A stretch of DNA of 64,000 nt. Origin: Pseudomonas sp. KU43P (GTDB lineage Bacteria > Pseudomonadota > Gammaproteobacteria > Pseudomonadales > Pseudomonadaceae). Below, piece after piece: positions 24,274 through 42,698 of the stretch. Under the pieces are notes generated by a model, which saw nothing but the letters and a program-made list of their open reading frames with translations, ran no database searches and had not been told where the DNA came from. Position 1 is the stretch's first letter; each line of letters begins with the position of its first letter. The DNA lies in the NCBI RefSeq assembly GCF_033095865.1, contig NZ_AP019365.1:378001-442000 (forward strand). Reading direction: 5' to 3'. The translations under genes were made by a program, and so were the position numbers.

Positions 24274-25638
24274 TCAACCCAGCAGCTGGCGCAATACCTC
24301 GACAAACGCCCGCGCACTGTCCTTTTCCTGCTCGTGCCGCCCCTGGCGCACCACCCATTGCCCGTTGACCATCACATCGCGCACCTGGCGATCGCCACCA
24401 GCGAACAGCCAGCGGTTGAGAATCGCATCCCCCTGGGCCATGGCGATGTACGGATCCTGCCCATCCAGCACCAGCCAATCGGCACGTTTGCCCACCGCCA
24501 GTTCGCCCACCGGGTGCCCCAGCACCTGTGCACCGCCGCTCAAGGCAGCGTCGTAAAGCGTCCGCCCGACCATAGGCTGGTCTTCGCGATAGAGCCGGTT
24601 GCGCCGCTGGTCACGCAGGCGCTGGCCGTATTCCAGCCAGCGCAACTCCTCGACCACGCTCAGTGAGACATGGCTATCCGAACCGATGCCCATGCGCCCA
24701 CCCTGGGCCAGGTAGTCCACTGCCGGGAAGATACCGTCGCCCAGGTTGGCCTCGGTGGTCAGGCACAGGCCCGCCACCGCGCCGCTGCGCGCCATTGCAG
24801 AAACTTCATGCGGGTCCGCATGGGTGGCATGCACCAGGCACCAACGCGCATCCACATCGACGTGTTCGTACAGCCACTGCAACGGACGCTGGCCGCTCCA
24901 GGCCAGGCAGTCGTCGACTTCCTTCTGCTGCTCGGCGATGTGAATGTGGATCGGGCATTGCTGGTCGCCCGCCGCCAGCACGTCGCTGATCTGCCCTGGG
25001 GTGACGGCACGCAACGAGTGGAAGCACAGGCCCAGCTGCTGCGCAGGTTGCGCGGCCAGCAGCGGGGCCAGCTGCGCTTGCAGGCGCAGGTACTGCTCGG
25101 TGGAGTTGATGAAGCGCCGCTGCCCCTCGTTGGGCGCCTGGCCGCCGAAGCCGCCATGGCTGTACAGTACCGGCAGCAAGGTCAGGCCGATGCCGGTGCT
25201 GGCGGCGGCAGCGCTGATGCGGCGGGACAGTTCGGCAGGGTCGGCATAGGCTTTGCCCGCCTGGTCATGGTGCACGTAATGAAACTCGGCCACCGAGGTA
25301 TAGCCGGCCTTGAGCATCTCGATATAGAGCTGGCGGGCGATAACCTGTAATTGATCCGGGGTGACCTTGCCGACCAGCCGGTACATCAGCTCGCGCCAGG
25401 TCCAGAAACTGTCGTTGGGGTTGCCCGCCACTTCCGCCAGGCCCGCCATTGCGCGCTGGAAGGCATGGGAGTGCAGGTTGGGCATGCCGGGCAGCAACGG
25501 CCCGCTCAGCCGCTCGGCACCTTCGGCGCTCGCATCGGCTTCGATTGCGGCCAGTTGGCCATCGGCAGTTACCTCGAGGCGGACATTATTGGCCCAACCG
25601 CTGGGCAGCAGGGCACGTTCGGCAAAGTAGGCGGGCAT
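24274..25638 (-). CDS. hutF: Formimidoylglutamate deiminase
   Basis: The 454-residue amidohydrolase-family enzyme converts N-formimino-glutamate to N-formyl-glutamate and ammonia, the fourth step of the five-step histidine pathway. Metal-site motifs are GMPNLHSHAFQRAMAG near residue 55, HIHIAEQQKEVDDCLAW, LVHATHADPHEV and GIGSDSHVSLS. The length fits HutF. It is divergent from hutC across a 107-base gap that contains a HutC-type palindrome. The presence of HutF with HutG means the locus uses the formylglutamate route. Confidence 0.95.
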   Translation of the reverse strand: MPAYFAERALLPSGWANNVRLEVTADGQLAAIEADASAEGAERLSGPLLPGMPNLHSHAFQRAMAGLAEVAGNPNDSFWTWRELMYRLVGKVTPDQLQVIARQLYIEMLKAGYTSVAEFHYVHHDQAGKAYADPAELSRRISAAAASTGIGLTLLPVLYSHGGFGGQAPNEGQRRFINSTEQYLRLQAQLAPLLAAQPAQQLGLCFHSLRAVTPGQISDVLAAGDQQCPIHIHIAEQQKEVDDCLAWSGQRPLQWLYEHVDVDARWCLVHATHADPHEVSAMARSGAVAGLCLTTEANLGDGIFPAVDYLAQGGRMGIGSDSHVSLSVVEELRWLEYGQRLRDQRRNRLYREDQPMVGRTLYDAALSGGAQVLGHPVGELAVGKRADWLVLDGQDPYIAMAQGDAILNRWLFAGGDRQVRDVMVNGQWVVRQGRHEQEKDSARAFVEVLRQLLG

Positions 25639-25745: not shown

Positions 25746-26492
25746 GTGCCGACACCTCCTGTCTCCGCGCTGGTAGCCCAGATGGGCGAGGGCCCGGCGC
25801 CGCTGTATGCCCGGGTCAAGCAGATGATCGTCCAGCAGATCGAAAATGGCAGCTGGCCGCCCCACCACCGGGTGCCTTCGGAAAGCGAGCTGGTCAGCGA
25901 GCTGGGCTTCAGCCGCATGACCATCAACCGCGCCCTGCGCGAACTTACCGCCGAAGGGCTGCTGGTGCGCATGCAGGGCGTGGGCACCTTCGTTGCCGAG
26001 CCCAAGACCCGCTCCGCGCTGTTCGAGGTCAACAACATCGCCGACGAGATCGCCGCGCGTGGCCACCAGCATAGCTGCCAGGTCATCGTCCTGGCCGAGG
26101 AAGCGGCCGGTTCCGAGCGCGCCCTGGCGCTGGACATGCGCGAGGGCCAGCGGGTGTTCCACTCGCTGATCGTGCACTTCGAGAACGGCGTGCCGGTGCA
26201 GATCGAAGACCGCTACGTCAACGCGCAGATCGCCCCGGACTACCTCAAGCAGGATTTCACCCGCCAGACACCCTATGCCTACCTGTCCCAGGTGGCCCCG
26301 CTGACCGAGGGCGAGCACGTGGTCGAGGCCATTCTCGCCGAGCCCGACGAGTGCAAGCTGTTGCAGATCGAACGGGGCGAGCCTTGCCTGCTGATCCGCC
26401 GGCGCACCTGGTCCGGTCGTCAGCCGGTGACCGCTGCGCGTTTGATCCATCCCGGTTCCCGTCATCGCCTTGAAGGACGTTTCAGTAAATGA
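25746..26492 (+). CDS. hutC: Histidine utilisation repressor HutC
   Basis: The 248-residue regulator has an N-terminal GntR winged helix (about residues 15-85, with VPSESELVSELGFSRMTINR) and a C-terminal UTRA effector domain of the HutC type (FHSLIVHFENGVPVQIEDRY, CLLIRRRTWSG). HutC represses hut genes and releases DNA when it binds urocanate. The GTG start at 25746 gives the family's usual N-terminus. Operator-like palindromes stand upstream of this gene and of hutU. It overlaps hutD by four bases. Confidence 0.96.
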   Translation: MPTPPVSALVAQMGEGPAPLYARVKQMIVQQIENGSWPPHHRVPSESELVSELGFSRMTINRALRELTAEGLLVRMQGVGTFVAEPKTRSALFEVNNIADEIAARGHQHSCQVIVLAEEAAGSERALALDMREGQRVFHSLIVHFENGVPVQIEDRYVNAQIAPDYLKQDFTRQTPYAYLSQVAPLTEGEHVVEAILAEPDECKLLQIERGEPCLLIRRRTWSGRQPVTAARLIHPGSRHRLEGRFSK

Positions 26493-27061
26493 GCCAGTTG
26501 CAGTGCTTGCGTGCCAAAGATTACCCGCGCATGCCGTGGAAGAACGGCGGTGGGTTCACCGAAGAGATCACCCGCGATGCCGGCGATGGCCTGGACGGCT
26601 TCGGCTGGCGGCTGTCGATCGCCGATATCGAGGCGTCCGGTGGGTTCTCCAGTTTCCCCGGTTATCAGCGGATCATCACCGTGCTGCAGGGCGATGGCAT
26701 GCGCCTGACCGTGGATGGCGAGCAGGCCCGGCCGCTGTTGCCGTTCGATGCCTATGCCTTTGCTGGCGAAAGCCAGGTGAGCTGCACGCTGCTGGGCGGG
26801 CCGATTCGGGACTTCAACCTGATCTATGCGCCGGGGCGCTACCGGGCGCGGTTGCAGTGGTTCAACGGCGGTAGCCGGCTCTTCAGTGCTGCCAGCACGG
26901 TGCTGGTGTTCAGTGCACAGGCCGAGTTGCAGGTGAGCATTGATGGCCAGGCGCAGTCGTTGGGCTTGTATGACTGCCTGCAGCGCAGCGGTAACGACCG
27001 GTTGCTTGAAGTGGATGTGCTGGGGCGCTGCTGCGTGATCGAGCTGACCCAGATTTCCTAG
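26489..27061 (+). CDS. hutD: HutD family cupin-fold protein
   Basis: The 190-residue protein shows the HutD signatures YPRMPWKNGGGFTEEI near the N-terminus, FGWRLSIADIEASGGFSSFP and YQRIITVLQGDGMRL. The fold is a double cupin. In Pseudomonas it has been proposed to moderate hut expression, perhaps by binding urocanate or formylglutamate; the mechanism is open. It overlaps the hutC stop (ATGA). Confidence 0.93.
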   Translation: MSQLQCLRAKDYPRMPWKNGGGFTEEITRDAGDGLDGFGWRLSIADIEASGGFSSFPGYQRIITVLQGDGMRLTVDGEQARPLLPFDAYAFAGESQVSCTLLGGPIRDFNLIYAPGRYRARLQWFNGGSRLFSAASTVLVFSAQAELQVSIDGQAQSLGLYDCLQRSGNDRLLEVDVLGRCCVIELTQIS

Positions 27062-27444: not shown

Positions 27445-29124
27445 GTGACTGACAACAAACTGAACAAATTCCGTGACGTCGAGATCCGCGCCCCGCGTGG
27501 CAACAAGCTGACGGCCAAAAGCTGGCTGACCGAAGCGCCGCTGCGCATGCTGATGAACAACCTCGACCCACAGGTCGCCGAGAACCCGAAAGAACTGGTG
27601 GTTTACGGCGGCATCGGCCGCGCTGCGCGCAACTGGGCCTGCTACGACAAGATCGTCGAGAGCCTGACCAACCTCAACGACGACGAAACCCTGCTGGTGC
27701 AGTCGGGCAAGCCGGTCGGTGTGTTCAAGACCCACGCCAACGCCCCGCGCGTGCTGATCGCCAACTCCAACCTGGTGCCGCACTGGGCCAACTGGGAACA
27801 CTTCAACGAACTGGACGCCAAAGGCCTGGCCATGTATGGCCAGATGACCGCCGGCAGCTGGATCTACATCGGCAGCCAGGGCATCGTCCAGGGCACCTAC
27901 GAAACCTTCGTCGAAGCCGGCCGCCAGCACTACGGCGGCAGCCTCAAGGGCAAGTGGGTACTGACCGCCGGCCTCGGCGGCATGGGCGGCGCCCAGCCAC
28001 TGGCCGCGACGCTGGCCGGCGCCTGCTCGCTGAACATCGAATGCCAGCAGAGCCGCATCGACTTCCGCCTGGAAACCCGCTACGTCGACGAACAGGCCAG
28101 CGACCTCGATGACGCCCTGGCGCGCATCGCCAAGTACACCGCCGAAGGCAAGGCCATCTCCATCGCCCTGCATGGCAACGCCGCAGAAATCCTGCCGGAA
28201 CTGGTCAAGCGTGGCGTGCGCCCGGACATGGTCACCGACCAGACCAGCGCCCACGACCCGCTCAACGGCTACCTGCCGGCCGGCTGGACCTGGGAGCAGT
28301 ACCGCGACCGCGCGCAGACCGAGCCGGCTGCCGTGGTCAAGGCTGCCAAGCAGTCCATGGCCGTACACGTGCAAGCCATGCTGGACTTCCAGAAGCAAGG
28401 CGTGCCGACCTTCGACTACGGCAACAACATCCGCCAGATGGCCAAGGAAGAAGGTGTTGCCAATGCCTTCGACTTCCCAGGCTTCGTGCCGGCCTACATC
28501 CGCCCGCTGTTCTGCCGTGGTATCGGCCCATTCCGCTGGGCCGCGCTGTCGGGCAACGCCGAAGACATCTACAAGACCGACGCCAAGGTCAAGGAACTGA
28601 TTCCGGACGACGCCCACCTGCACCGCTGGCTGGACATGGCTCGCGAGCGCATCAGCTTCCAGGGCCTGCCGGCGCGTATCTGCTGGGTTGGCCTGGGCCT
28701 GCGCGCCAAGCTGGGCCTGGCGTTCAACGAAATGGTGCGCAGCGGCGAGCTGTCGGCGCCGATCGTGATTGGCCGCGACCACCTCGATTCGGGTTCGGTA
28801 TCCAGCCCCAACCGTGAAACCGAAGCCATGCAGGACGGTTCGGATGCCGTGTCCGACTGGCCGCTGCTCAATGCCCTGCTCAACACTGCCAGCGGTGCTA
28901 CCTGGGTGTCCTTGCACCACGGCGGCGGCGTGGGTATGGGCTTCTCGCAGCACTCTGGCATGGTGATCGTGTGCGACGGTACCGATGAAGCGGCCGAGCG
29001 CATTGCCCGCGTGCTGACCAACGACCCGGCCACCGGGGTGATGCGCCATGCCGACGCGGGCTATCAGATTGCAATTGATTGCGCCAAAGAGCAGGGGTTG
29101 AACCTGCCGATGATTACTGGCTGA
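27445..29124 (+). CDS. hutU: Urocanate hydratase
   Basis: The 559-residue urocanase converts urocanate to 4-imidazolone-5-propionate with tightly bound NAD. Visible motifs are [88 protein letters not shown] and the C-terminal [19 protein letters not shown]. The length is normal. The GTG start has GAGGAG 7-8 bases upstream. A full control region precedes it: dyads, a sigma-54 promoter and a HutC palindrome. It begins the run hutU-hutXWV-hutH1-hutH2-hutI-hutG. Confidence 0.97.
27451..27458 (+). promoter_or_regulatory. Possible Crc/Hfq catabolite-activity motif at the hutU start
   Basis: GACAACAA, beginning in the third codon, matches seven of eight positions of AAnAAnAA. Such A-rich motifs at translation starts mediate catabolite repression in pseudomonads. 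Confidence 0.4.
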
Positions 29125-29287: not shown

Positions 29288-30256
29288 ATGAAAACCAACA
29301 AGACCTTGCTTGCCTCGCTGTTCGCCCTCGGCCTGCTCGGCGCTGCCGGCAGCAGCCAGGCCGCCGGCTGGTGCGAGTCTGGCAAGCCGGTGAAGTTCGC
29401 CGGGCTGAACTGGGAAAGCGGCATGCTGCTGACCGACGTGATGCAATTCGTATTGAAGAACGGCTACGGCTGCGAGACCGATAGCCTGCCCGGCAACTCC
29501 ATCACCATGGAAAACGCCCTGGGCACCAACGATATTCAGGTGTTCGCCGAGGAATGGGTTGGCCGTAGCGAGGTCTGGAAGAAGGCCGAGGCCGCTGGCA
29601 AGGTGGTCGGCGTCGGTGCCCCGGTGGTGGGCGCAGAAGAGGGCTGGTACGTCCCCCGTTACGTGATCGAGGGTGACGCCAAGCGCAAGCTCGAAGCCAA
29701 GGCGCCGGACCTCAAGAACGTGGCCGACCTGGGCAAGTACGCCAGTGTGTTCAAGGATCAGGAAGAACCGAGCAAAGGCCGCTTCTACAACTGCCCGGCC
29801 GGTTGGACCTGCGAGCTGGACAACAGCAAGATGCTCAAGGACTACGGTCTCGAGAGCAGTTACACCAACTTCCGCCCTGGCACCGGCCCGGCGCTGGATG
29901 CCGCCGTCTTGTCGAGCTACAAGCGCGGCGAGCCTATCCTGTTCTACTACTGGACCCCAACCCCGCTGATGGGCCAGGTCGATCTGGTCAAGCTGCAGGA
30001 GAAAGAAGGCGTGGATAAATCGGTGTCGATCAAGGTCGGCCTGTCCAAGACCTTCCACGAGCAGGCGCCCGAGCTGGTCGCGGTGCTGGAGAAGGTCAAC
30101 CTGCCGATCGATTTGCTGAACCAGAATCTGGCGCGCATGACCAAGGAGCGGATCGAGTCGCCCGCACTGGCCAAGGCGTTCCTCAAGGAACATCCTGAAG
30201 TCTGGCAGGCCTGGGTCAGCGATGAGGCTGCCAAGAAGATCAACGCGGCGCTTTGA
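29288..30256 (+). CDS. hutX: ABC transporter substrate-binding protein, OpuAC type (probable histidine transporter)
   Basis: The 322-residue periplasmic binding protein has a Sec signal peptide (about residues 1-26, ending in SSQAA). It belongs to the glycine-betaine/quaternary-amine binding group (WCESGKPVKFAGLNWESG, FAEEWVGRSEVW, YWTPTPLMGQVDL). Its place inside the hut operon, followed directly by permease and ATPase genes, points to histidine or a related substrate; this matches the HutXWV systems described in rhizobia and pseudomonads. Substrate is inferred from context only. Confidence 0.85.
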   Translation: MKTNKTLLASLFALGLLGAAGSSQAAGWCESGKPVKFAGLNWESGMLLTDVMQFVLKNGYGCETDSLPGNSITMENALGTNDIQVFAEEWVGRSEVWKKAEAAGKVVGVGAPVVGAEEGWYVPRYVIEGDAKRKLEAKAPDLKNVADLGKYASVFKDQEEPSKGRFYNCPAGWTCELDNSKMLKDYGLESSYTNFRPGTGPALDAAVLSSYKRGEPILFYYWTPTPLMGQVDLVKLQEKEGVDKSVSIKVGLSKTFHEQAPELVAVLEKVNLPIDLLNQNLARMTKERIESPALAKAFLKEHPEVWQAWVSDEAAKKINAAL

Positions 30257-30282
30257 GCGTCCTCAGCTGATGAGTGGAACCT

Positions 30283-31134
30283 ATGTTTCCTGACAACCTG
30301 ACATTTTCCATCGCCGACTGGGTCAACGGTTGGGTCGACGCCCTGGTGACCAACTACGGCGACGTGTTCCGGCACATTTCCGACACCCTACTGTGGGCCA
30401 TCGTCAGCCTCGAAGGCGCGCTGCGCGCCACCCCGTGGTGGCTGATGCTCGGCGTCGTGGCGGTGATTGCCTGGCACGCCACCCGGCGCATTCTGCCGAC
30501 CCTGGTCATCACCGGGTTGTTGTTCCTGGTGGGTGCAGTAGGCCTGTGGGACAAGCTGATGCAGACCCTGGCACTGATGCTGGTGGCGACGCTGATTTCG
30601 GTGCTGGTGGGCATCCCGCTGGGCATACTCTCGGCCCGCAGCAACCGCTTGCGCGCCGTGCTGATGCCGCTGCTGGACATCATGCAGACCATGCCCAGCT
30701 TCGTATACCTGATCCCGGTGCTGATGCTGTTTGGCCTGGGCAAGGTGCCGGCGATCTTCGCCACGGTGATCTACGCCGCGCCGCCGCTGATCCGCCTGAC
30801 CGACCTGGGCATTCGCCAGGTCGACGGTGAAGTGATGGAGGCGATCAACGCCTTCGGCGCCAACCGCTGGCAGCAACTGTTCGGCGTGCAGCTGCCGCTG
30901 GCCTTGCCGAGCATCATGGCCGGCATCAACCAGACCACCATGATGGCCCTGTCGATGGTGGTGATCGCCTCGATGATCGGTGCCCGTGGCCTGGGCGAGG
31001 ATGTGCTGGTAGGCATCCAGACCCTCAACGTCGGCCGCGGCCTCGAAGCGGGCCTGGCCATCGTCATTCTCGCGGTGGTGATCGACCGCATTACCCAGGC
31101 CTACGGCCGGCCACGCCATGAGGTGAGCAAATGA
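30283..31134 (+). CDS. hutW: ABC transporter permease, ProW/OpuA type
   Basis: The 283-residue inner-membrane protein has an N-terminal amphipathic stretch followed by several hydrophobic segments (residues about 45-275) and the permease EAA loop MEAINAFGANRWQQLFGVQLP. It forms the channel for the binding protein encoded just upstream. I took the ATG at 30283; a GTG three codons earlier is possible. It overlaps the ATPase gene by four bases (ATGA). Confidence 0.88.
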   Translation: MFPDNLTFSIADWVNGWVDALVTNYGDVFRHISDTLLWAIVSLEGALRATPWWLMLGVVAVIAWHATRRILPTLVITGLLFLVGAVGLWDKLMQTLALMLVATLISVLVGIPLGILSARSNRLRAVLMPLLDIMQTMPSFVYLIPVLMLFGLGKVPAIFATVIYAAPPLIRLTDLGIRQVDGEVMEAINAFGANRWQQLFGVQLPLALPSIMAGINQTTMMALSMVVIASMIGARGLGEDVLVGIQTLNVGRGLEAGLAIVILAVVIDRITQAYGRPRHEVSK

Positions 31135-31961
31135 GCACGCAGGCGATCAGCAAGATCGAAGTGAAGAACGTCTTCAAGATCTTCGGCGACCGCGCCGACG
31201 AAGCCCTGCAGATGATCCGCAACCAGCAGGGCAAGGAGCAGGTGCTGGCGCAGACCGGCTGCGTGGTCGGGGTCAACGACCTGTCGCTGTCGATCGGCAG
31301 CGGCGAGATCTTCGTCATCATGGGCCTGTCCGGCTCGGGCAAGTCGACCCTGGTGCGCCACTTCAACCGCCTGATCGACCCCACCAGCGGGCAGATCCTG
31401 GTCGACGGCGAAGACATCCTGCAGTACGACATGGAGGCCCTGCGCGAATTTCGCCGGCGCAAGATCAGCATGGTGTTCCAGAGCTTCGGCCTGCTGCCGC
31501 ATCGCAACGTGCTGGACAACGTCGCCTATGGCCTCAAAGTACGCGGCGAGAGCAAGCAGCTGTGCGCCGAGCGGGCCATGCAGTGGATCGAGACCGTGGG
31601 CCTGAAGGGCTACGAGAAGAAGTACCCGCACCAGCTGTCGGGCGGCATGCGCCAACGTGTGGGCCTGGCCCGGGCGTTGGCGGCGGATACCGACATCATC
31701 CTCATGGACGAGGCGTTCAGCGCCCTCGACCCGCTGATCCGTGCCGAAATGCAGGACCAGTTGCTGGAGCTGCAGAAGACCCTGCACAAGACCATCGTGT
31801 TCATCACCCATGACCTGGACGAAGCGGTGCGCATCGGCAACCGCATCGCCATTCTCAAGGATGGCCGCCTGATCCAGGTCGGCACGCCGCAGCAGATCCT
31901 TCACAACCCGGCCGACGAGTACGTCGACCGCTTCGTCCAGCGCCGCGCGGTCGCGGTATGA
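31131..31961 (+). CDS. hutV: ABC transporter ATP-binding protein, ProV type
   Basis: The 276-residue ATPase has Walker A GLSGSGKST, the Q-loop VFQSFGLLPH, signature LSGGMRQRVGLARAL, Walker B IILMDEAFSALD and the H-loop FITHDLDEA. It is shorter than betaine-type ProV and lacks the C-terminal CBS pair used for osmotic gating. That fits nutrient uptake rather than osmoregulation. The gene overlaps hutW and is followed within ten bases by hutH1. Confidence 0.9.
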   Translation: MSTQAISKIEVKNVFKIFGDRADEALQMIRNQQGKEQVLAQTGCVVGVNDLSLSIGSGEIFVIMGLSGSGKSTLVRHFNRLIDPTSGQILVDGEDILQYDMEALREFRRRKISMVFQSFGLLPHRNVLDNVAYGLKVRGESKQLCAERAMQWIETVGLKGYEKKYPHQLSGGMRQRVGLARALAADTDIILMDEAFSALDPLIRAEMQDQLLELQKTLHKTIVFITHDLDEAVRIGNRIAILKDGRLIQVGTPQQILHNPADEYVDRFVQRRAVAV

Positions 31962-31969
31962 GGAGCGCC

Positions 31970-33493
31970 ATGTCGCAAGCTGCAACCGTGGTCTTCACCG
32001 GCGCCGCGCTGCGCTGGCAGGACATCGCCGCCGTGGCCCGCCATGGCGCGCGCCTGGAACTGGCGCCGCAGGTGTGGGCGCGCATCGACAATGCCCAGGC
32101 CATCGTGCGCCATATCGTCGAAAGCGGTGAGCGCGCCTATGGCGTCAACACCGGGCTTGGCGCGCTGTGCAACGTCTCCTTGCAGGGTGAGCAGCTCGCG
32201 GCGCTGTCGCGCAACACCTTGCTTAGCCACGCCTGTGGCGTCGGCCCGGCGCTGCCGGATGAGCAGGCGCGGGCGATCATCTGCGCCGCCATCGCAAACT
32301 ACAGCCACGGCAAGTCCGGCATCCACCGCCGCGTGGTCGAGGCGTTGCTGGCGCTGCTCAACCACGGCATCACGCCACAAGTACCGTCCCAGGGCTCGGT
32401 CGGATACCTGACCCACATGGCCCATGTCGGCGTGTGCCTGTTGGGCATTGGCAAGGTGAGCTACCGCGGGCAGATCGTCGAGGCCGCCCAAGCGCTGGCC
32501 GCAGAAGGCCTGGCACCGGTGCAGCTGGGCGCCAAGGACGGCCTGTGCCTGGTCAACGGCACACCCTGCATGACCGGCCTGGCCAGTCTCGCGCTGGACG
32601 ACGCCAGCCGTTTGCTGCAATGGGCCGACGTGATCGGCGCCATGAGCTTCGAAGCCTTGCGCGGCCAGATCGCCGCCTTCGACCCTGAAATCATCGCGCT
32701 CAAGCCGCACCCGGGCATGCAGGTGGTGGGCGAGAACCTGCGCGCCTTGCTCGAAGGCAGCGAAGTGATCGCCACCAGCAAGGGCATCCGTACCCAGGAT
32801 GCCCTGAGCATCCGTTCCATCCCCCAGGTACACGGTGCCGCTCGTGACCAGTTGGCCCATGCCGCCCGGCAGATCGAGGCGGAGCTCAACGGCGCCAACG
32901 ACAACCCGTTGCTGCTGGGTACCCCGGACGACTTCCGGGTCGTGTCCCAGGCCAACCCCCATGGCCAATCGGTAGCCATGGCCGCCGACCTGCTGGCGAT
33001 CGCCATGGCCGAGATCGGCTCGATCGCCGAACGGCGACTGGATCGCCTGGTCAACCCGCTGGTCAGCGGCCTGCCGGCCTTCCTGGTCAGCAACCCCGGC
33101 GTCAACTCGGGGATGATGATCGCCCAGTACGTGGCTGCTTCGCTGTGCGCGCAGAACCGCCAGTTGGCGCAGCCGGCGGTACTCGACAACTACGTGACCT
33201 CGGGCGTTCAGGAAGACCACCTGAGCCTGGGCACCAATGCCGCGCTCAAGCTGCATCAGGTGCTGGACAACTGCACTCAGGTGCTGGCCATCGAGTACCT
33301 GCTGGCCGCCCAGGCCTTCGAATTCCTCAAGGAACAGCGTTTCGGCGCTGGCACCGATGCTGCCTGGCGCCTGCTGCGCGAACAGGTGCCGGCCTACCTG
33401 GAAGACCGTTGGCTGGCCCCCGACATCGCCCGCGCCGCCGCGCTTTTGAAAGCTTCGCAAGGGCCGCAGCCGGTGCTGCCGGCACTGCACTGA
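31970..33493 (+). CDS. hutH1: Histidine ammonia-lyase paralogue lacking the MIO triad
   Basis: The 507-residue protein is collinear with Hut[44 protein letters not shown]. However, the segment that should read [11 protein letters not shown] reads [12 protein letters not shown] (residues about 142-153). The Ala-Ser-Gly that cyclises to the MIO cofactor is absent. The QDPYSLR motif of the true enzyme is QDALSIR here, and GNFHAEP is ANPHGQS, so two further active-site residues differ. Retained residues include the loop Tyr, the His of SHACG, the Asn of LVNGT and the Glu of QED. It cannot use the MIO chemistry and may be a regulator, a binding protein or an enzyme of another reaction. The reading frame is intact. 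I chose ATG 31970 behind GAGGAG; ATG 31958 is an alternative. Confidence 0.88.
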
Positions 33494-33513
33494 ATACGCA
33501 AAGGAGTCTGAAC

Positions 33514-35046
33514 ATGGAAGCGTTGAACCTTGTGCCCGGCCGCCTGACCCTGGCCCAGCTGCGCCGTATCCACTTGGCACCCGTGCAGTTGAGCCTGGAT
33601 GCCAGCGCCGGTGCGGCCATCGACGCCAGCGTCGCCTGCGTCGAGCGGATCATTGCCGAAGACCGCACGGCCTACGGCATCAATACCGGTTTCGGCCTGC
33701 TGGCCTCGACCCGCATCGCCAGCCACGACCTGGAGAACCTGCAGCGTTCGCTGGTGCTGTCCCACGCCGCCGGTATCGGCGCGCCGCTGGACGACGCCAT
33801 GGTGCGGTTGATCATGGTGCTGAAGATCAACAGCCTCAGTCGTGGCTTCTCCGGCATTCGCCGCAAGGTCATCGATGCGCTGATCGCCCTGGTCAACGCC
33901 GAGGTGTACCCGCACATCCCGCTCAAGGGCTCGGTGGGCGCCTCCGGTGACCTGGCGCCCCTGGCACACATGTCGCTGGTGCTGCTTGGCGAAGGCAAGG
34001 CGCGCTACCAAGGGCAATGGTTGTCGGCCAATGAAGCCCTGGCCGTGGCCGGCCTTGAACCGCTCACCCTGGCAGCCAAAGAGGGGCTGGCGCTGCTCAA
34101 CGGCACCCAGGCTTCTACCGCCTATGCGTTGCGTGGCCTGTTCCAGGCCGAAGACCTGTTCGCCGCCGCCATCGCCTGTGGTGGCCTGACCGTGGAGGCT
34201 GTACTGGGCTCGCGCTCGCCCTTCGATGCGCGCATCCACGCCGCCCGTGGCCAGCTTGGCCAGATCGATACCGCGGCGTGCTTCCGCGACCTGTTGGGTG
34301 AGTCGACCGAGGTGTCCCAGTCGCACAAGAACTGTGGCAAGGTCCAGGACCCGTACTCGCTACGCTGCCAGCCACAGGTCATGGGCGCCTGCCTGACCCA
34401 GCTGCGCCAGGCTGCCGAGGTGCTGGGCATCGAAGCCAATGCGGTGTCGGACAACCCCCTGGTGTTCGCCGCCGAGGGCGACGTGGTGTCGGGTGGTAAC
34501 TTCCATGCCGAACCGGTTGCCATGGCCGCCGACAATCTGGCCCTGGCCATCGCCGAGATCGGCGCGCTGAGCGAGCGGCGCATCTCGCTGATGATGGACA
34601 AGCACATGTCGCAGTTGCCGCCGTTCCTGGTGGAAAACGGCGGGGTCAACTCCGGCTTCATGATCGCCCAGGTCACGGCTGCCGCCCTGGCCAGCGAGAA
34701 CAAGGCGCTGTCGCACCCACACAGCGTCGATAGCCTGCCGACTTCCGCGAACCAGGAAGACCATGTGTCGATGGCCCCGGCCGCGGGCAAGCGCTTGTGG
34801 GAAATGGCCGAGAACACCCGTGGTGTATTGGCCATCGAATGGCTCGGTGCCTGCCAGGGCCTGGACCTGCGCGAAGGGCTTAAAACCTCGGTGAAGCTGG
34901 AGCAGGCGCGCCAGGTGCTGCGCCGCGAGGTGCCGCATTACGACCACGACCGCTTCTTCTCACCGGATATCGAGGCGGCCAGTGCCTTGCTGGCCGAAGG
35001 CAAGTTGACCGCGCTGCTGCCGGCCGGCGTGCTGCCAAGCCTGTAG
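33514..35046 (+). CDS. hutH2: Histidine ammonia-lyase
   Basis: The 510-residue enzyme deaminates histidine to urocanate, the first pathway step. The MIO triad is intact in [16 protein letters not shown] (Ser about residue 144). Tyr in [10 protein letters not shown], His in SHAAGIG, Asn in [29 protein letters not shown] and Glu in ANQEDHVSM are all present. The protein closely matches the P. putida HutH sequence as I recall it. AAAGGAG precedes the ATG at 33514. Only 20 bases separate it from hutH1, with no hutT permease gene between the two. Confidence 0.97.
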
Positions 35047-35047
35047 G

Positions 35048-35142
35048 GGCGGATGTGGGAGCCGGCTTGCCGGCGATGAAGGCACCGCGGAGCATGGCAC
35101 CAGCTGCGCCGGTGATCGCCGGCAAGCCGGCTCCCACAAGAG
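35048..35142. repeat. REP inverted pair between hutH2 and hutI
   Basis: TGTGGGAGCCGGCTTGCCGG faces CGCCGGCAAGCCGGCTCCCA across about 35 bases, inside the hut operon. Confidence 0.87.
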
Positions 35143-35180
35143 CCCTCCGTCAGAACAGCGATGAACATCGGAGTTTGTGT

Positions 35181-36386
35181 ATGAGAACCCTCTGGCAAAA
35201 CTGCCACGCGGCAACCATGGCCCAGGGTAGCTACTCGGCCATCGAAGACGCCGCCATCGTCAGCAACGCAGGCCTGATCGAATGGATCGGGCCACGTGCC
35301 GACGTGCCGCCGCTGGAAATCGCCCGCACGGTCGATCTCAATGGCGCCTGGGTCACCCCAGGCCTGATCGACTGCCACACCCACGCGGTATTCGGTGGCA
35401 ACCGCAGCGGCGAGTTCGAGCAGCGCCTGCAGGGCGTGAGCTATGCCGAAATTGCTGCTCAGGGCGGCGGCATCGCCAGCACCGTGCGCGCCACCCGCGC
35501 AGCCAGCGAGGACGAATTGTTCGCCAGCGCCCGGCAACGTGTGCAGGCATTGATGCGTGATGGCGTGACCACGATCGAGATCAAGTCCGGCTATGGCCTG
35601 GACCTGGCCAACGAGCGCAAGATGCTGCGCGTGGCCCGCCGCCTGGCCGACGAGCTGCCGCTGGCGGTGCGCGCCACGTGCCTGGCCGCCCATGCCTTGC
35701 CACCGGAATATGCCGGCCGGGCAGACGACTACATCGCCCACATCTGCAACGAGATGCTCCCGGCCCTGGCCGAGGAAGGGCTGGTGGATGCGGTGGACGC
35801 CTTCTGCGAGCACCTGGCGTTCTCCCCGGCACAGGTCGAGCGGCTGTTCATCAAGGCGCGCGAATTGGGGCTGCCGGTCAAGCTGCATGCCGAACAGCTG
35901 TCATCGCTGCACGGCTCCAGCCTGGCGGCGCATTATCAGGCGTTGTCCGCCGATCACCTGGAGTTCATGACCGAAGAAGATGCCATCGCCATGGCCAAAG
36001 CCGGCACGGTCGCCGTATTGTTGCCTGGCGCGTTCTACTTCCTGCGCGAAACGCAACTGCCGCCGATGGAGGCGCTGCGCCGCCACGGGGTGAAGATCGC
36101 CCTCGCCAGCGACCTCAACCCCGGCACTTCGCCTGGCTTGTCGCTGCGGCTGATGCTGAACATGGGCTGCACATTGTTCCGCATGACCCCGGAAGAGGCC
36201 TTGGCGGGTGTCACCTTGCATGCCGCTACTGCGCTAGGCCTGGGCGACAGCCATGGTTCGCTGGAAACCGGCAAGGTGGCGGACTTCGTCGCCTGGCACA
36301 TCGAACGCCCTGCCGACCTGGCCTACTGGCTGGGCGGTGACCTGCCCAAGCGTGTGGTGCGCAAGGGCCACGAGATTTCCAACTGA
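35181..36386 (+). CDS. hutI: Imidazolonepropionase
   Basis: The 401-residue amidohydrolase opens 4-imidazolone-5-propionate to formiminoglutamate, the third pathway step. Motifs are [21 protein letters not shown] (the HxH metal pair), [26 protein letters not shown] and [16 protein letters not shown] with the metal Asp. The length is typical. I chose ATG 35181, which begins the conserved [12 protein letters not shown]; in-frame codons upstream lie in the REP element. It is followed ten bases later by hutG. Confidence 0.96.
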
Positions 36387-36396
36387 GCGAGGCAAT

Positions 36397-37200
36397 ATGG
36401 ACAAGGTACTGAGTTTTCACCAGGGCCATTTGCCCCTGCTGATCAGCATGCCCCACGCCGGGCTGAAACTGACCCCAGCGGTTGAGGATGGCCTGGTCGA
36501 GGCGGCACGCAGCCTCCCCGATACCGATTGGCATATCCCGCGCCTCTACGATTTCGCCCGTGAGCTGGGCGCCAGCGTGGTGGCGGCGGAGTACTCGCGC
36601 TTCGTCATCGACCTGAACCGGCCGGAAGACGACCAGCCGCTGTATGCCGGCGCGACCACCGGTTTGTACCCGGCGACGCTGTTCGAGGGCGAGCCCTTGT
36701 TCGAGGAGGGGAAGGTGCCCTCGGCGCAAGAGCGGGCCACCTATCTGGAACAGATCTGGCGGCCGTACCACGACACCCTGCGCAATGAACTGGCACGCCT
36801 GCGTGAGGCGTTCGGCTATGCACTGCTGTGGGACGCCCATTCGATCCGCTCGCACATCCCGCACCTGTTCGACGGCAAGCTGCCGGACTTCAACCTCGGC
36901 ACCTTCAATGGTGCCAGTTGCGACCCTCGGCTGGCCGAGCGGCTGCAGGGTGTATGCGCCGAGGAAAGCGCCTATAGCCATGTGCTGAACGGGCGCTTCA
37001 AGGGCGGCCACATCACCCGCCACTATGGCCATCCAGGCGAGAACATCCACGCCGTGCAGCTGGAGCTTGCGCAAAGTACCTACATGGAAGAGTGCGAACC
37101 TTTCGCTTATCGCGAGGAACTTGCGCAGCCGACCCAGAAGGTACTGCGCAAGCTGCTGGAAACCACCGTGGACTGGGGGCGTGAGCGCTACGGGCGTTGA
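36397..37200 (+). CDS. hutG: N-formylglutamate amidohydrolase
   Basis: The 267-residue enzyme hydrolyses N-formylglutamate to glutamate and formate, the last step of this route. Signatures are PLLISMPHAGLKLTP, VVAAEYSRFVIDLNRP, LLWDAHSIRS and GGHITRHYGHPGENIHAVQLEL. It belongs to the FGase family that pairs with HutF, not the arginase-like formiminoglutamase. It ends the hut operon. Its last 13 bases overlap the 3' end of the convergent giant gene. Confidence 0.96.
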   Translation: MDKVLSFHQGHLPLLISMPHAGLKLTPAVEDGLVEAARSLPDTDWHIPRLYDFARELGASVVAAEYSRFVIDLNRPEDDQPLYAGATTGLYPATLFEGEPLFEEGKVPSAQERATYLEQIWRPYHDTLRNELARLREAFGYALLWDAHSIRSHIPHLFDGKLPDFNLGTFNGASCDPRLAERLQGVCAEESAYSHVLNGRFKGGHITRHYGHPGENIHAVQLELAQSTYMEECEPFAYREELAQPTQKVLRKLLETTVDWGRERYGR

Positions 37201-40200
37201 GCCGGATCACTCGAAGAGCGCGGCTTGCGATCAGGGTCGGCGAAGGCGGTGAGTTCGCGGATCAGGTGTGATTCGCGGGCCTTCCGGCTTCGTTCCAGGG
37301 CATTGAATTCCTCGCTCAGGTCATCCAGTGACCGTTCGGGATAGCGTTCGGGGAGTTCGCTCACCTGGTCTCGGTAATGGCTTTCGATTTGTGCGAAGCG
37401 CTCCGAGTAGGACTGGCGCAAGTGTTGAACCCAAACTTCGTTGGCGGCAGCAAAACGCAGAAAATCCTCGCCGAGTTCCCCGCGCCGGACCTGCAACTCT
37501 GCATCGATCAATTCCTCGAAACTGGGGTTGATCGCATACATCAGCCTATCGACGGGCTGGCCAAGTTGCAGTGGCCCATTCAGTTCGCGCAGGTAGGTCA
37601 GGCGTACCTCGGCTATATCCCGGTCGCCAGCTTCGCGCGTGGCCACCTCATCTACCGTGCGCACGCGATACAGGCGGCGCAGCTCACGATACAAGTTGGC
37701 CTCGCTGTCTTCGCCATCAAACTTCAAATCTTCGCTGGCAATGTAGAACTCGATGTTCTTGAAGGTCAGCAGGGCGCCGTCATAGCAGGTATGGTCGCCG
37801 TCTTCTTGGATCAAGGCTTCGCTGGCCTGGATGTTGAAAAGCGCCCGATCGTCCGGATCAAGCAACGCCCTGACCAGTACCTTGCGAACGCGTTCGCAGA
37901 ACGCCAAGCGGGTCTGGTCATTCTGGTAGGCAGCGGTATTTTTCAATCGGCCTACAAGGGCCAGCAGATCCTGGGCATCGCCTGCTTCCTCAAGTTGCTC
38001 CCAGGTGTCGCGCAGGGCTTCGTTTTCCACCTCCGAAGCCAGGAGCCAGTCCGTGAGCCTGGGTGTATCTTCGATGGGCAGTCCACCCACCTCGTCGCGA
38101 ATCGCGCTGAGCAGGTCCTCGTACCATTCGTCGACGGCATCGAGCCTGAGCGTAAAGCTGCTACGGCTCTCCGATGACACGCGTGCGCGGTGGACGACAT
38201 CCTCCCTCAATGGGTTGCCGTTCAGGCGGATGGTGCTGATGGGCACGCTGTTATCGAGGTTTTGCATGATGAAGGGAGGCAATTCCCTGAGCTGGTTATC
38301 ACTCAGGTCCAGCATTTCCAGGGGTAACAGGCTATTGACCCAGGTTGGCCAATGCTCGAGGCCCATTTCGTTGAGGTTGATGCGTCGCAGTGTGATGAGT
38401 GTATGCGGGACATTGACGATTGTGCCGGCGCGGTTGTTTCTGAGGTCAAGTATTTGCAGCCGGTGCAGTGGCGCCAACGCATCCATGAAGTGCTGATCGA
38501 TCTCCAGCCCGACATTACGCAGTGCCAGAAAAGTCAATTGAGAGGATTGCTGCAGCGCCATCGGCAGGTCATGCGGTGCCCGCACGAACGTGTCCAGGGT
38601 CAGGCGGGTCATGCCAGGGAAGCGACTGAGCAGATCTTGCAGTTGCGCGGTGGTACCGCTGACATTTTCGAGGCAGAGGGTAGTTACGCGCTCGCAGAAG
38701 AACGTGGGTAACCGAGTCGGGAACAATTCCAGTGCTACGCCTGTCAGGCGTAACGGGATGCTGGTTTGGCCGGTTTCCTGACTGCTCCAGAACGCGTTCA
38801 GCGCTGTAGCGATGTCCCTTCTGCCGTTGTACACGGCTTGGCTGACCACTGCGGCCGAGGAGGACGCGTTGAGGTAATTGTCCAGATGATCGCGAAGCCG
38901 TTGTCGCAGCGTCAGATGCTGATTCAGCTGCTCAAGGAAGGCATCGGGCTGGTCCCACTCGAAGTGCTGGCCCCAGCCGTCCTGGTCGAGCATCACCGGC
39001 AGCATGTGGTCATGGCTGATGGCGTTGCCTTGCAGGAGCAACCGGGGATGGTGCGGAACGCCGTGTGTCCTTTCCAGCAGGAAGTGGGGCAGCAACGTGA
39101 TCTGGTTGTTGCGCAGGGAAATCTGCTGCATGCGGGAGGCGCTACTGTAGCCGAGCCCATCCGGCCAGTGTCCCAGCTGCATGTTGTCGAGGCCAAGATA
39201 ATCCAGGCTCAAGCGACTGAAGTCGGGCGGATTGTCGTCGGAGAGGCGGTTCCCGCTGAGGTCCAGGTGGCGCAGGTCGTTCAGGTTCGCGAGGCTGTCG
39301 ATATCGACCATTGAAATGATGATGTTCTGGTGGGTCAGGCGTAGCGTTTGCAGCGAGGGCAACTGCTCTGCGATCAACGGCAAGCTGAACTGGAACGGCG
39401 AAGGCAATGCATCTTGCCGGTAGGGGCGGCTGATCTCCAGCGTTCTCACGTTGGCGAATTGCCGCAGCATGCTGTTCAACCGTGGAGTGTGCTCGCGCAC
39501 GCTCTGATAGCGTTCAGGCTGGGTTTCGAGCAGCTGCAGGTCGCTGACGCCTGCAGTGAAGAAGGTCGGCAGCCGAAGCGGAAAGTCCAGCAGCGACAAC
39601 CGCTCCAGGCGCAAGGGCGTGACCAGGCTTTCGTGTGCTGCAAAGGCGCGATCGTACCAATGCTGGGTAATGGCATTCGCCATGTGCTCGAAGTCGTTGG
39701 CGCTGTAGCTGGGCAATACGGCCGCCATCTGCCGCCAGTGGCTCAGGCTGGACTGCAGTTGGCTGCGTTGCTCCAGCAGATTGTCGAGTTGCCCACTGAT
39801 CGCGTTGCGATCGAGGCTGCGGCTTTCCAGTGATGCCAGGATCTGCTCGGCGGGACGTGGCGTGGGGGTGTGCAAACTGATCTGCCTGATCCTGGCGAGC
39901 AGTGTTTGCCGCGAAATGCTGATGACGCGCGGGCGAGTACCGCCCAATGGGTAGCCGAGACGCCCGTCGGCCAGGCGCATGGGTGAGCGGAAACCGGGCT
40001 CCACTGGCTGCATGCCCAGAATCTGCCTCAGCGCTGGGCGCGGCAGCAGGTCAGCTTGCTGAACCATTGCCTTGAATGCCAGGTTGTTGTCGATCCCCAG
40101 CGCCGTGCGCTGCGCTTCGCTGAGCGCTTCGAACAGGGCACCCTGCAACGAGGCGTGGGTTTTCAGTGGAGCATCGGAGGGTTCACTGCTCATCAGTATG

Positions 40201-42698
40201 TAGCCGGCCTGGGCACTGATGATCGTTGGACCCTGCGCTGCATCAGGGCCGATGCGGGAACGTTGGCTGGGCGAGTAGATGCGCTGTTCCAGGGTGATGC
40301 CGAGATTCACTGGCCAGCCAGGTAACTGCCCGAGGGTGTGCAGCACCAAGCAATCGGTGTCCCAGTTGCGCAACTGGTTCAGGTACAGCCCTTCGTAGGC
40401 GCGGTTGAGCCTGATCTGCTGCTGGAGAAGGCGGATCTCATCGGCCAGGCGCCTGGGCACCTTGCCATTGTCCAGCTCGCCCAGTTCGCTGGCGGTGGCA
40501 TTGTTCAGCAGCTCCTCGATGACGGGGGAGGGCAGCTGCCGATAGCGTGCGTGGAGCATTTCGGCCCCCGGCACCTGGCTGGCGGGCAGGCGCTGGTACT
40601 GCAGCTGGAATTCGCGCTGAACCTCGCCGGGCAATGCCTGCGTGTTTGCCTGTTCAAGGCGCTGGTAAAGCTTGAAGCGGGTAAAGGTATCTTCCAGCTG
40701 GCCGGGCAAGCGCTGGCTGTCGCACAGCACTTTGCGCAGGACATCCTCGTCGATGTCACTTACCCGCAAGGTGCGCCGTACGGTGTTCTCGTCGAAGTGT
40801 TCGTTACCTGCCCCCGAGCGGCGCACCAGTTGGTTTGCCTGCCATTGCTCGGGGCGGTCCAAGGGATGTAGCCAGCTGTCGGTACCGTTGTGACGCAGCG
40901 GTGGTTGGTAGGCGTCCGCCCGGGTCGGGTGTTCGATAACGTAGCCATCGTCCTGCGCAGCACGCCTCACCGAATAGGCTTGGCCGTCCAGAACAAGCCA
41001 CGCTCTGCCTTGGTGATGCCGTAGCCCCAGGTTGTCTGGCTGCAGTGTGGCGGGAAAATCGATGGGCTGGGCATAGGGCGCTAGATCGGTCTGCCAGAGC
41101 CTGGTCTGGCCTTGCGGGAGCTCCACGTCATCGAGCTCTTCAATGAATGACGGTATTTCTACCGGCAGGGGTTCGACCAGCTGCCTTGGGTCAAGGGTGC
41201 TTGCACCGCCCTGGATCGCCTTGAGGGCCAAGGTGAAGGCGGCCATCTCTGCCACGTTCCTCACCACGTCCATCAGGTACTGGTAGGCCTGCTGCCGATC
41301 GTCATGGGCCCAGCTTTCGATACCCTCGTAGACCTCATAAGCCAGTTGCAATGCACAGACACCCAGCATGACCTCGCCAACGGCAGGTATGAAGAGCCCG
41401 GCGACATTGAGTGCGGTGAGTGCTTTTTGCAGCAAGTGCTCGCGGTAACTCACTGCAGTGATGGTATCGATGAGGGTTGTGGGGATGGCGTGGAAGGCGG
41501 CGTCTTCTTCGTGGCGAAAGACTTTTTCCGTGACCAGCCCCTGCAACAGGGAACCACTGAGCTGGCGTGCTTGCAGGTGCAACGTCGCGTGAGGATCTGC
41601 GATACGTTCATGAGTACCTTTCTGCGTCAGCGTCCATGGCATCAGCCGGTCCAGCAACCGGGTCTGCAGATGTGCCTTGTGGCGCTCTTTCATGCAGTGG
41701 TCGAGGTATCTGATATCGCCGAGCAAACGGTCGCGCAACCATTGCTCGCATGCTGTCTTCGATGCGAATTCGCGAAGCGGTGTCTCAGGGTCGGCGGGAA
41801 TGTAAAGCGCCACCGAAGATTCCCCATCGGCTGATCGGTAATCGAGCAGGCGCACATGGGTCAGTTGTACATCCCACAGCGTAATGACACCGAACGTCAG
41901 GGTGGGAGCGTGCACCGGAACATCCAGAGGCAGCGCCAGGGCTGCCTCGTAGAGGCCCTGGCTGATGTCGTTCTGCAGCCGGGCAAGGTGCAGGCTCTGG
42001 GTGAACGTGCAGCGCTCAAGCTCGGCAAGCTTCTGGCCGGTCACCTTGTTGCTTTCACCGCTCTTCAGGTCGCTGTAATGGATGGCCTGCAGTTTTGCCT
42101 GGTACTGGCCACCGATATCCAGTTCACGGCACATGCGGGCAAACCGTTCGGGGGCCATGTCGAGGGTGTTGGGGATCGGTACCGTGCCCATGAAACCTTT
42201 GTGGTCGAGGATCACCGACTTCTTGAGCAGGGCATTGGCGTTATCCATACCCCCTGGCTCGGCTGCGCTGGCCTCGAAGTTGCGCAGCGCACTCTCCAGC
42301 AAGGAATGGGTGGCAAGCGTGTAGGCCTGCAAATCCTCTCCTGGTTGATGGTCGAGGTGCCGGACGTCCAGCAGGTGGTTGTCGGTGACATCCAGTTCGA
42401 TGCCGAAGGTTTCCTTGATGGCAATGGCCAGCTGTTCCTTGGCAAAGGTTTGCAGGTCAGGCAGAGACTGATACAGGGCCTGCACCTCAAGCATGGCGGC
42501 CTGCACGCGCGCATGCTCGCTCGCCAGTGCCCGGGCGATGGCAGGTTCGGCCTGGCAGGCCTGCTGCAGCTCGGCTGCACGTGCGCTCATCACCTGGTTC
42601 ATCAGGGTATGGGTCGATGGCGGAGCGTTTTTCATCCAGTCGGGGGTTTTTCCGGCGATCAGCGCATAGGGGATGCCGTTGTCTTTTTCCAAGGTCAT
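37188..42698 (-). CDS. Giant LRR protein with C-terminal NEL-type E3 ubiquitin ligase domain
   Basis: The 1836-residue protein has these parts: an N-terminal DUF6543/dermonecrotic-toxin-like region (about 60-420, with VILDHKGFMGT, CRELDIGGQYQAKLQAI); a hydrophobic stretch (about 425-460); a module around 570-620 (WLVLDGQAYSVRR, HNGTDSWLHPLD) that recurs in the gene at 61038; two leucine-rich-repeat clusters (about 1100-1215 with LRHLDLSGNRLSDDNPPDF, and 1410-1500 with LEMLDLSDNQLRELPPF); and a NEL domain (about 1510-1836). The catalytic CxD motif is CYD with Cys1638, in a setting like that of IpaH/SspH ligases (DWLLASEVENEALRDTWEQL). NEL enzymes ubiquitinate proteins of eukaryotic hosts. No secretion apparatus lies nearby. 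It stands alone, divergent from pip. Confidence 0.87.
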   Translation of the reverse strand: MTLEKDNGIPYALIAGKTPDWMKNAPPSTHTLMNQVMSARAAELQQACQAEPAIARALASEHARVQAAMLEVQALYQSLPDLQTFAKEQLAIAIKETFGIELDVTDNHLLDVRHLDHQPGEDLQAYTLATHSLLESALRNFEASAAEPGGMDNANALLKKSVILDHKGFMGTVPIPNTLDMAPERFARMCRELDIGGQYQAKLQAIHYSDLKSGESNKVTGQKLAELERCTFTQSLHLARLQNDISQGLYEAALALPLDVPVHAPTLTFGVITLWDVQLTHVRLLDYRSADGESSVALYIPADPETPLREFASKTACEQWLRDRLLGDIRYLDHCMKERHKAHLQTRLLDRLMPWTLTQKGTHERIADPHATLHLQARQLSGSLLQGLVTEKVFRHEEDAAFHAIPTTLIDTITAVSYREHLLQKALTALNVAGLFIPAVGEVMLGVCALQLAYEVYEGIESWAHDDRQQAYQYLMDVVRNVAEMAAFTLALKAIQGGASTLDPRQLVEPLPVEIPSFIEELDDVELPQGQTRLWQTDLAPYAQPIDFPATLQPDNLGLRHHQGRAWLVLDGQAYSVRRAAQDDGYVIEHPTRADAYQPPLRHNGTDSWLHPLDRPEQWQANQLVRRSGAGNEHFDENTVRRTLRVSDIDEDVLRKVLCDSQRLPGQLEDTFTRFKLYQRLEQANTQALPGEVQREFQLQYQRLPASQVPGAEMLHARYRQLPSPVIEELLNNATASELGELDNGKVPRRLADEIRLLQQQIRLNRAYEGLYLNQLRNWDTDCLVLHTLGQLPGWPVNLGITLEQRIYSPSQRSRIGPDAAQGPTIISAQAGYILMSSEPSDAPLKTHASLQGALFEALSEAQRTALGIDNNLAFKAMVQQADLLPRPALRQILGMQPVEPGFRSPMRLADGRLGYPLGGTRPRVISISRQTLLARIRQISLHTPTPRPAEQILASLESRSLDRNAISGQLDNLLEQRSQLQSSLSHWRQMAAVLPSYSANDFEHMANAITQHWYDRAFAAHESLVTPLRLERLSLLDFPLRLPTFFTAGVSDLQLLETQPERYQSVREHTPRLNSMLRQFANVRTLEISRPYRQDALPSPFQFSLPLIAEQLPSLQTLRLTHQNIIISMVDIDSLANLNDLRHLDLSGNRLSDDNPPDFSRLSLDYLGLDNMQLGHWPDGLGYSSASRMQQISLRNNQITLLPHFLLERTHGVPHHPRLLLQGNAISHDHMLPVMLDQDGWGQHFEWDQPDAFLEQLNQHLTLRQRLRDHLDNYLNASSSAAVVSQAVYNGRRDIATALNAFWSSQETGQTSIPLRLTGVALELFPTRLPTFFCERVTTLCLENVSGTTAQLQDLLSRFPGMTRLTLDTFVRAPHDLPMALQQSSQLTFLALRNVGLEIDQHFMDALAPLHRLQILDLRNNRAGTIVNVPHTLITLRRINLNEMGLEHWPTWVNSLLPLEMLDLSDNQLRELPPFIMQNLDNSVPISTIRLNGNPLREDVVHRARVSSESRSSFTLRLDAVDEWYEDLLSAIRDEVGGLPIEDTPRLTDWLLASEVENEALRDTWEQLEEAGDAQDLLALVGRLKNTAAYQNDQTRLAFCERVRKVLVRALLDPDDRALFNIQASEALIQEDGDHTCYDGALLTFKNIEFYIASEDLKFDGEDSEANLYRELRRLYRVRTVDEVATREAGDRDIAEVRLTYLRELNGPLQLGQPVDRLMYAINPSFEELIDAELQVRRGELGEDFLRFAAANEVWVQHLRQSYSERFAQIESHYRDQVSELPERYPERSLDDLSEEFNALERSRKARESHLIRELTAFADPDRKPRSSSDPAQRP

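Follow-up and report, generated by a model that had tools for sequence, protein, structure and literature searches.

The hut cluster of the window (the whole 64,000-nucleotide stretch of Pseudomonas sp. KU43P DNA analysed here) contains hutH1, the product of which belongs to the histidine ammonia-lyase (HAL) family, has lost its catalytic MIO part and is under purifying selection. HutH1 is predicted, with somewhat better than even confidence, to be an active lyase that works without MIO on a histidine-derived betaine, most likely converting hercynine to urocanate and trimethylamine; we infer activity, substrate and product alike. The transporter encoded just upstream of hutH1 would import the histidine betaine, HutH1 would eliminate trimethylamine from it without MIO, the likeliest substrate being hercynine (N,N,N-trimethyl-L-histidine), and the urocanate produced would both enter the HutU-HutI-HutF-HutG route and lift HutC repression. 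In ammonia-lyases, an Ala-Ser-Gly triad cyclises to form MIO, which turns ammonia into a good leaving group. Since trimethylammonium already is one, MIO would be dispensable for HutH1, as it is in ergothionase, whose activity without MIO implies that loss of the cofactor need not end catalysis when trimethylamine leaves.

The broader proposal, that HutH1 opens an undescribed hercynine pathway combining import by ProU-, BCCT- or amino-acid-type transporters, MIO-free removal of trimethylamine and delivery of urocanate to the hut enzymes, is given not quite an even chance. If true, it would explain the presence of two hutH genes in many pseudomonads, reveal a further way in which bacteria make trimethylamine, give hercynine a metabolic fate and correct the annotation of hutH, given that HutH1 passes the equivalog cut-off without the cofactor residues; genome-based predictions of histidine use from hutH copy counts would need care. 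Hercynine is reported to be made en route to ergothioneine. A search of titles and the beginnings of abstracts in the open literature, with subscription journals mostly outside its reach, found no description of a hercynine lyase, and histidine betaine with urocanate, or hercynine with urocanate and Pseudomonas, had no open-literature match.

The hut cluster and the triad deletion

The cluster runs hutF (minus strand), hutC, hutD, hutU, hutX, hutW, hutV, hutH1, hutH2, hutI and hutG (Table 1), the identities of hutF, hutC, hutD, hutU, hutI and hutG being presumed from sequence and place. All eight solved structures matched by HutX are, by name, glycine betaine, betaine or choline transport proteins, save one named just as an ABC permease subunit. 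Beside hutG lies a 1836-aa ORF (window 37188-42698, minus strand) with apparent leucine-rich repeats. Elsewhere, the genome holds a third PF00221 gene (L003:1366-3060, equivalent to C1:349990-351357, minus strand), which is of the [14 protein letters not shown] type and has Ala-Ser-Gly intact; because the 10 scored members of its class carry Gln414 and Lys382, it probably acts on another substrate.

Table 1. Positions of hut genes and altered motifs in the window
Feature	Position	Strand	Basis or remark
hutF	24274..25638	-	Name from sequence and place
hutC, urocanate-responsive repressor	25746..26492	+	Name from sequence and place; role from a review
hutD	26489..27061	+	Name from sequence and place
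hutU, urocanate hydratase	27445..29124	+	Name from sequence and place; would act on what HutH1 and HutH2 produce
hutX, substrate-binding protein	29288..30256	+	Best structure matches are glycine-betaine/proline-binding proteins
hutW, permease of ProU/choline type	30274..31134	+	Profile score
hutV, ATPase of ProU/choline type, immediately preceding hutH1	31131..31961	+	Profile score, upstream-gene survey
hutH1, MIO-less HAL-family protein, 507 aa	31970..33493	+	Alignment, profile score, AlphaFold model
[11 protein letters not shown], where the three Ala-Ser-Gly codons are deleted	32393..32425	+	Junction between 32404 and 32405
QDALSIR (QDPYSLR in the true enzyme)	32795..32815	+	Leu for Tyr280; Gln277 and Arg283 kept
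ANPHGQS (GNFHAEP in the true enzyme)	32951..32971	+	Pro for Phe329
hutH2, canonical histidase with Ala-Ser-Gly	33514..35046	+	Alignment, profile score, residue table
hutI	35181..36386	+	Start is an internal Met of ORF 35055-36386; name from sequence and place
hutG	36397..37200	+	Start is an internal Met of ORF 36253-37200; name from sequence and place

The initial annotation had described hutH1 as an intact, open frame without the MIO triad, situated between the transporter and the real hutH and altered at two further motifs (QDPYSLR to QDALSIR and GNFHAEP to ANPHGQS), and the ORF and alignment data bear this out in each respect. The frame may begin at ATG 31958, which overlaps the hutV stop, or at ATG 31970, the latter giving 507 aa, which is the length of most homologues among the best 120 of 7066 matches. 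The AlphaFold model, a monomer, has a pLDDT of 89; a complete active site would require the tetramer. Antisense to the gene runs a 559-aa open frame (window 31901-33580, minus strand). In a global alignment, HutH1 and HutH2 are collinear end to end with a gap of exactly three residues at Ala-Ser-Gly, YLTHMAH lying opposite DLAPLAH, although the alignment program drew the gap one place along, after Tyr; the change in the triad is a deletion more than a substitution. HutH1 has the HAL/PAL fold and retains the substrate-positioning residues of MIO-dependent histidases, i.e. Y53, H83, N195, Q277, R283, E414 and M382, whereas the triad, Tyr280 and Phe329 are missing. At 539.8 against a cut-off of 539.15, it passes the NCBIfam hutH equivalog TIGR01225 by 0.65 bits, which would explain its usual name.

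These residues were compared across 401 HAL-like sequences, comprising 147 with YxxHMAH (142 distinct cores), 121 (94 distinct cores) plus 10 with Ala-Ser-Gly, 116 with GAAD and seven others; 25 of the 121 are gapped at positions 53 and 83, and the YxxHMAH class, being defined by its motif, lacks Ala-Ser-Gly by definition. Within that class, Tyr280 is replaced by Leu in 147/147 and Phe329 by Pro in 145 (Ala in the other two), while H83, N195, Q277, R283, E414 and M382 are kept in every member and Y53 in 146, with one gap. The F329G form of the Pseudomonas putida enzyme is reported not to form MIO, so that Pro at this position fits a non-MIO protein. Retention of Met382 as in HAL, where ergothionase has Gly, would point to an unsubstituted imidazole. 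Another MIO-less variant, GSVGYLGPEGH, occurs in genome G107 (L056:885-2432), where it keeps Tyr280, directly follows an ABC ATPase gene and has MIO histidases as its closest solved structures.

Conservation, transporter company and distribution

Among the 120 homologues listed (the best of 7066 matches), all keep [11 protein letters not shown], which answers affirmatively the question, raised in the initial annotation, of whether YLTHMAH is conserved. HMAH is invariant in 14/14 aligned HutH1 proteins and present in 83 of 86 scored loci, the other three being unread. Orthologs at ≥58 % identity occur in 104 of the 149 genomes sampled within the genus, none with an internal stop. Across 53 sources with both genes (1211 pairs passing the divergence filter), HutH1 has a median dN/dS of 0.140 (highest pair 0.599) and HutH2 one of 0.086; the decay and stop codons that might have spoken against a selected role are absent from the genus orthologs. 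Together, the fixed motif and the stop-free orthologs exclude chance or sequencing error. A phylum-wide search of 398 genomes for the exact HutH1 motif picked out at least 13, among them the genome of the window itself, this count being a lower bound since an exact match was needed.

The link to transport suggested in the initial annotation was also upheld, in that a transporter gene stands directly upstream of hutH1 in 92 of 94 loci (tblastn). The survey consisted of the best 80 of 484 confirmed relatives, 13 hand-picked loci and the window (93 after removal of one duplicate), and the loci are not independent, as Pseudomonas is the named genus for 67 of the 93, with eight more carrying its genus code. 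Upstream genes were of the ProU/betaine-type ABC (hutXWV) in 69 loci, BCCT in 15, amino-acid-type ABC in eight and other in two, with BCCT and OpuAC identities taken from Pfam on representatives; the genes accompanying HutH1 are mostly those of betaine uptake. Because of long antisense ORFs, length-based gene calling resolved 60/89 loci, whereas a GC3-weighted caller resolved 86/89 and tblastn 94/94; in one gene-caller cluster, hutI was mixed with a transporter-like gene that lies between hutU and hutX. Neither hutU nor hutG is present within the examined stretch of 14 of the 94 loci, and eight of these are ProU-type hutXWV-hutH1 cassettes, seven with a LysR gene of a single cluster divergent to hutX. 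The two loci without a transporter (L056 and L057) belong to a branch at about 50 % identity. The L057 gene run includes a Rieske oxygenase scoring best against glycine betaine monooxygenase (585 bits, below the 670 cut-off); the solved structures nearest to it are 3vca ('ring-hydroxylating dioxygenase') and 4qup ('monoxygenase; demethylase').

The gene upstream of HutH2 was uninformative as a control, 51 of the 66 HutH2 places counted directly following hutH1, and co-occurrence across genomes was therefore used. Among Pseudomonas genomes, HutX (≥74 % identity) is found in 95 of the 104 that have HutH1 versus one of the 45 that lack it (Fisher p about 1e-27, shared ancestry ignored), and in none of 35 genomes that lack HutH1 and have just a weaker HAL-like match (E about 1e-90 to 1e-105); those 35 matches were taken as ordinary HAL, the motif having been read in G146 alone, where Ala-Ser-Gly is present. 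Nine genomes have HutH1 and no HutX; four of them keep hutW-hutV directly upstream, two (G063 and G041) have a BCCT gene, two (G120 and, through L175, G080) have an amino-acid ABC and one (G133) has a BCCT-cluster gene, if it is the same record as L132. Given these counts and the presence of other transporters elsewhere, the transporter tracks HutH1 and not histidase. The sole HutX genome without HutH1 among the 149, G043, has hutC-hutXWV (L213:3680-8507), and no HAL match appeared in its protein search; this group adjoins a class II tRNA-synthetase-like ORF.

Beyond Pseudomonas, Salinicola corii (G452, L048/L123) has hutC, hutF, hutU, a BCCT gene, hutH1, hutI and hutG, with hutU, hutI and hutG 88, 64 and 58 % identical to those of the window. 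Its genome, rated 100 % complete, contains three PF00221 genes, encoding HutH1, a GSLGAAD protein and an Ala-Ser-Gly protein, none of which is a canonical HutH; the last is 33-35 % identical to either window protein and falls in the class with Gln 414 and Lys 382. The operon's own urocanate would need HutH1, unless the third PF00221 protein is a histidase. The GSLGAADLAQ protein, a second MIO-less HAL-like product, is encoded at the end of the hut operon (L048:4510-6045, minus strand, equivalent to L123:13993-15528, plus strand) and, as the ORFs read, a binding-protein-like gene comes next and then more ABC transporter genes. Of solved structures, ergothionase matches this protein best; most of its named homologues belong to Rhizobium, and they are often called histidine ammonia-lyase. 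When 369 genomes of the taxonomic class were searched with the Salinicola protein (E <= 1e-90), six matched, two of HutH1 type (57-64 %, one being the window's own) and four at 40-42 %; with just two such genomes, the family is rare beyond the groups mentioned here.

The plasmid collection gave 185 matching records at E <= 1e-100, and nine relatives were read, from Erwinia, Burkholderia (two), Rhizobium (three), Aminobacter, Agrobacterium and Priestia. The family annotated hutH in Pseudomonadota is also on Bacillota plasmids. By motif, all nine lack Ala-Ser-Gly, have the same shortening and carry Leu at 280; the HMAH position reads THAAA, NHQAH, THNAH or VHNAH. Upstream stand an amino-acid-type ABC in five, a ProU ABC in one (Agrobacterium) and an MFS gene in one (Priestia, where hutU, hutI and an agmatinase-family gene come before it), while the Aminobacter relative has no same-strand transporter upstream and one record is without annotation. 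Two binding proteins of the amino-acid ABCs were scored and are most like the lysine/arginine/ornithine type. On the Rhizobium tumorigenes plasmid (L217:9484-12003), the MIO-less hutH is followed by an N-methyl-L-tryptophan oxidase-type gene, with a GlnII-like glutamine synthetase gene on the opposite strand, which hints at use of methylated amines.

Weighing a betaine lyase against other readings

Counting for a betaine lyase are the lost MIO triad beside retained substrate-binding residues, purifying selection and gene company mostly of betaine-type transporters, as well as the S. corii hut operon, which contains HutH1 in a genome without canonical HutH, and the Agrobacterium run, which couples an MIO-less HutH1-like protein with a ProU ABC and a urocanate-hydratase homologue. 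Counting against it are the pairwise scores, which place HutH1 nearer to MIO enzymes than to ergothionase, the amino-acid-type ABC found as partner in eight of the 94 loci and in five of the nine plasmid relatives, the difference at 329 (Phe kept in ergothionase, Pro in HutH1), a grouping with ergothionase that has an SH-aLRT of just 91 with long branches and L088 changing sides, and the G043 hutC-hutXWV without HutH1. In addition, a review passage lists hutXWV without mention of betaines; there, hutH1 and hutXWV are presented as an insertion between hutU and hutH, and hutXWV as a further high-affinity transporter. The locus of Pseudomonas aeruginosa PA7 with HutH1 is L181. PA5093 of P. aeruginosa is probably a second HAL-like gene and may be the HutH1 gene. 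A 2025 paper (PMC12772324) calls PA5093 hutG and reports its mutant to be impaired on histidine and urocanate. Either that name or the assigned role should therefore be re-examined; the mutant may concern HutH1, in which case its phenotype would count against a role limited to hercynine.

A rather unlikely alternative is that HutH1 is a non-catalytic pseudoenzyme, a binder of histidine or urocanate that would control the transporter, HutC signalling or HutH2. The conserved open frame under purifying selection, the kept binding residues beside the lost MIO and Tyr280, and a transporter gene next door in 92 of 94 loci would all suit such a protein; however, some cassettes have no hutU or hutG within the examined stretch, S. 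corii has HutH1 in its hut operon and no canonical HutH in its genome, and ergothionase is active though it too lacks MIO and Tyr280. From the interpretation in the initial annotation, the conserved non-MIO role other than histidine deamination therefore stands, whereas a catalytically dead partner of HutH2 is less supported, and mixed tetramers with HutH2 are disfavoured as a general role, given S. corii and the cassettes. Also unlikely is a MIO-less lyase acting on ergothioneine, on oxidised ergothioneine or on a partly methylated histidine. The MIO-less relative with a solved structure is ergothionase, the Agrobacterium relative has as neighbours a urocanate-hydratase homologue, an amidohydrolase and a molybdenum S/N-oxide reductase, and the R. 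tumorigenes gene precedes one of N-methyl-L-tryptophan oxidase type, but the partners in Pseudomonas and Salinicola are hutU-I-G (with the identities given above for S. corii), and Met382 is that of HAL and not the Gly of ergothionase.

It is highly improbable that HutH1 deaminates histidine by other MIO-free chemistry, such as a metal held by the HMAH histidines. The constancy of HMAH in the 14 aligned proteins and the 83 loci, as well as the narrow pass of the TIGR01225 cut-off, are in keeping with this; yet the second His is not strict, as the plasmid relatives show (THAAA, NHQAH, THNAH or VHNAH), growth of strain SBW25 on histidine does not need hutH1, according to the review, and mutation of hutH (PA5098) is reported in PMC12772324 to impair P. 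aeruginosa on histidine. A decaying hutH duplicate, with which a median dN/dS somewhat above that of HutH2 (and the single high pair) might agree, is refuted by conservation and dN/dS, i.e. 104 of 104 genus orthologs without an internal stop, purifying selection and a replacement motif fixed across families; its probability is negligible. A betaine lyase thus remains the preferred reading.

Comparison with known lyases and hut systems

In pairwise comparison, MIO enzymes resemble HutH1 more than ergothionase does, with scores of 359 bits for 7tqr, 319 for P. putida HAL and 225 for ergothionase, to which HutH1 is 29 % identical in structural alignment; the Agrobacterium relative likewise scores 273 against an MIO enzyme versus 168 against ergothionase. 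In trees, HutH1 forms one clade both with the active-site columns (100/98) and, after these were dropped and two more MIO enzymes added, without them (SH-aLRT 97). The grouping of HutH1, ergothionase and GAAD proteins received 91/75 in the first tree and an SH-aLRT of 91 in the second, on long branches and with few MIO lyases, and the MIO-less L088 protein, placed with the MIO-less proteins in the first tree, moved to the MIO side in the second. A single common loss of MIO in HutH1 and ergothionase is possible on these trees, though not firm, as ergothionase sits on a very long branch.

Relative to the P. putida HutH structure 1b8f, HutH1 is without the MIO triad and has Leu for Tyr280 and Pro for Phe329. 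Like HutH1, ergothionase (6s7j/6s7q, Treponema denticola), reported to lack MIO, has a HAL fold without the triad, has Leu at 280 and keeps Y53, H83, Q277, R283 and E414. Unlike HutH1, it misses one residue at the triad instead of three, keeps Phe329 and has Ser at 195 and Gly at 382, the last being known from the one ergothionase compared; HutH1 shares its Leu280 and not its Gly382, Met382 being kept in 147/147. The GSLGAAD family of Rhizobium and Salinicola resembles HutH1 in its broken triad and in Leu at 280 (116/116), and differs in having Arg at 83, a one-residue gap and a place in a separate clade near ergothionase. The likeness of the SBW25 hutH1 to the window gene is one of name and place, the review passage in question having no word of MIO or a betaine substrate. 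The Agrobacterium run (L220/L223) consists of a urocanate-hydratase homologue, a Mo S/N-oxide reductase, an amidohydrolase, a ProU ABC and an MIO-less HutH, and it probably corresponds to the published ergothioneine-sulfonate pathway. Its MIO-less HutH, 43.9 % identical to HutH1, matches it in the three-residue shortening, in QDPLSLR and in having a ProU ATPase gene directly upstream.
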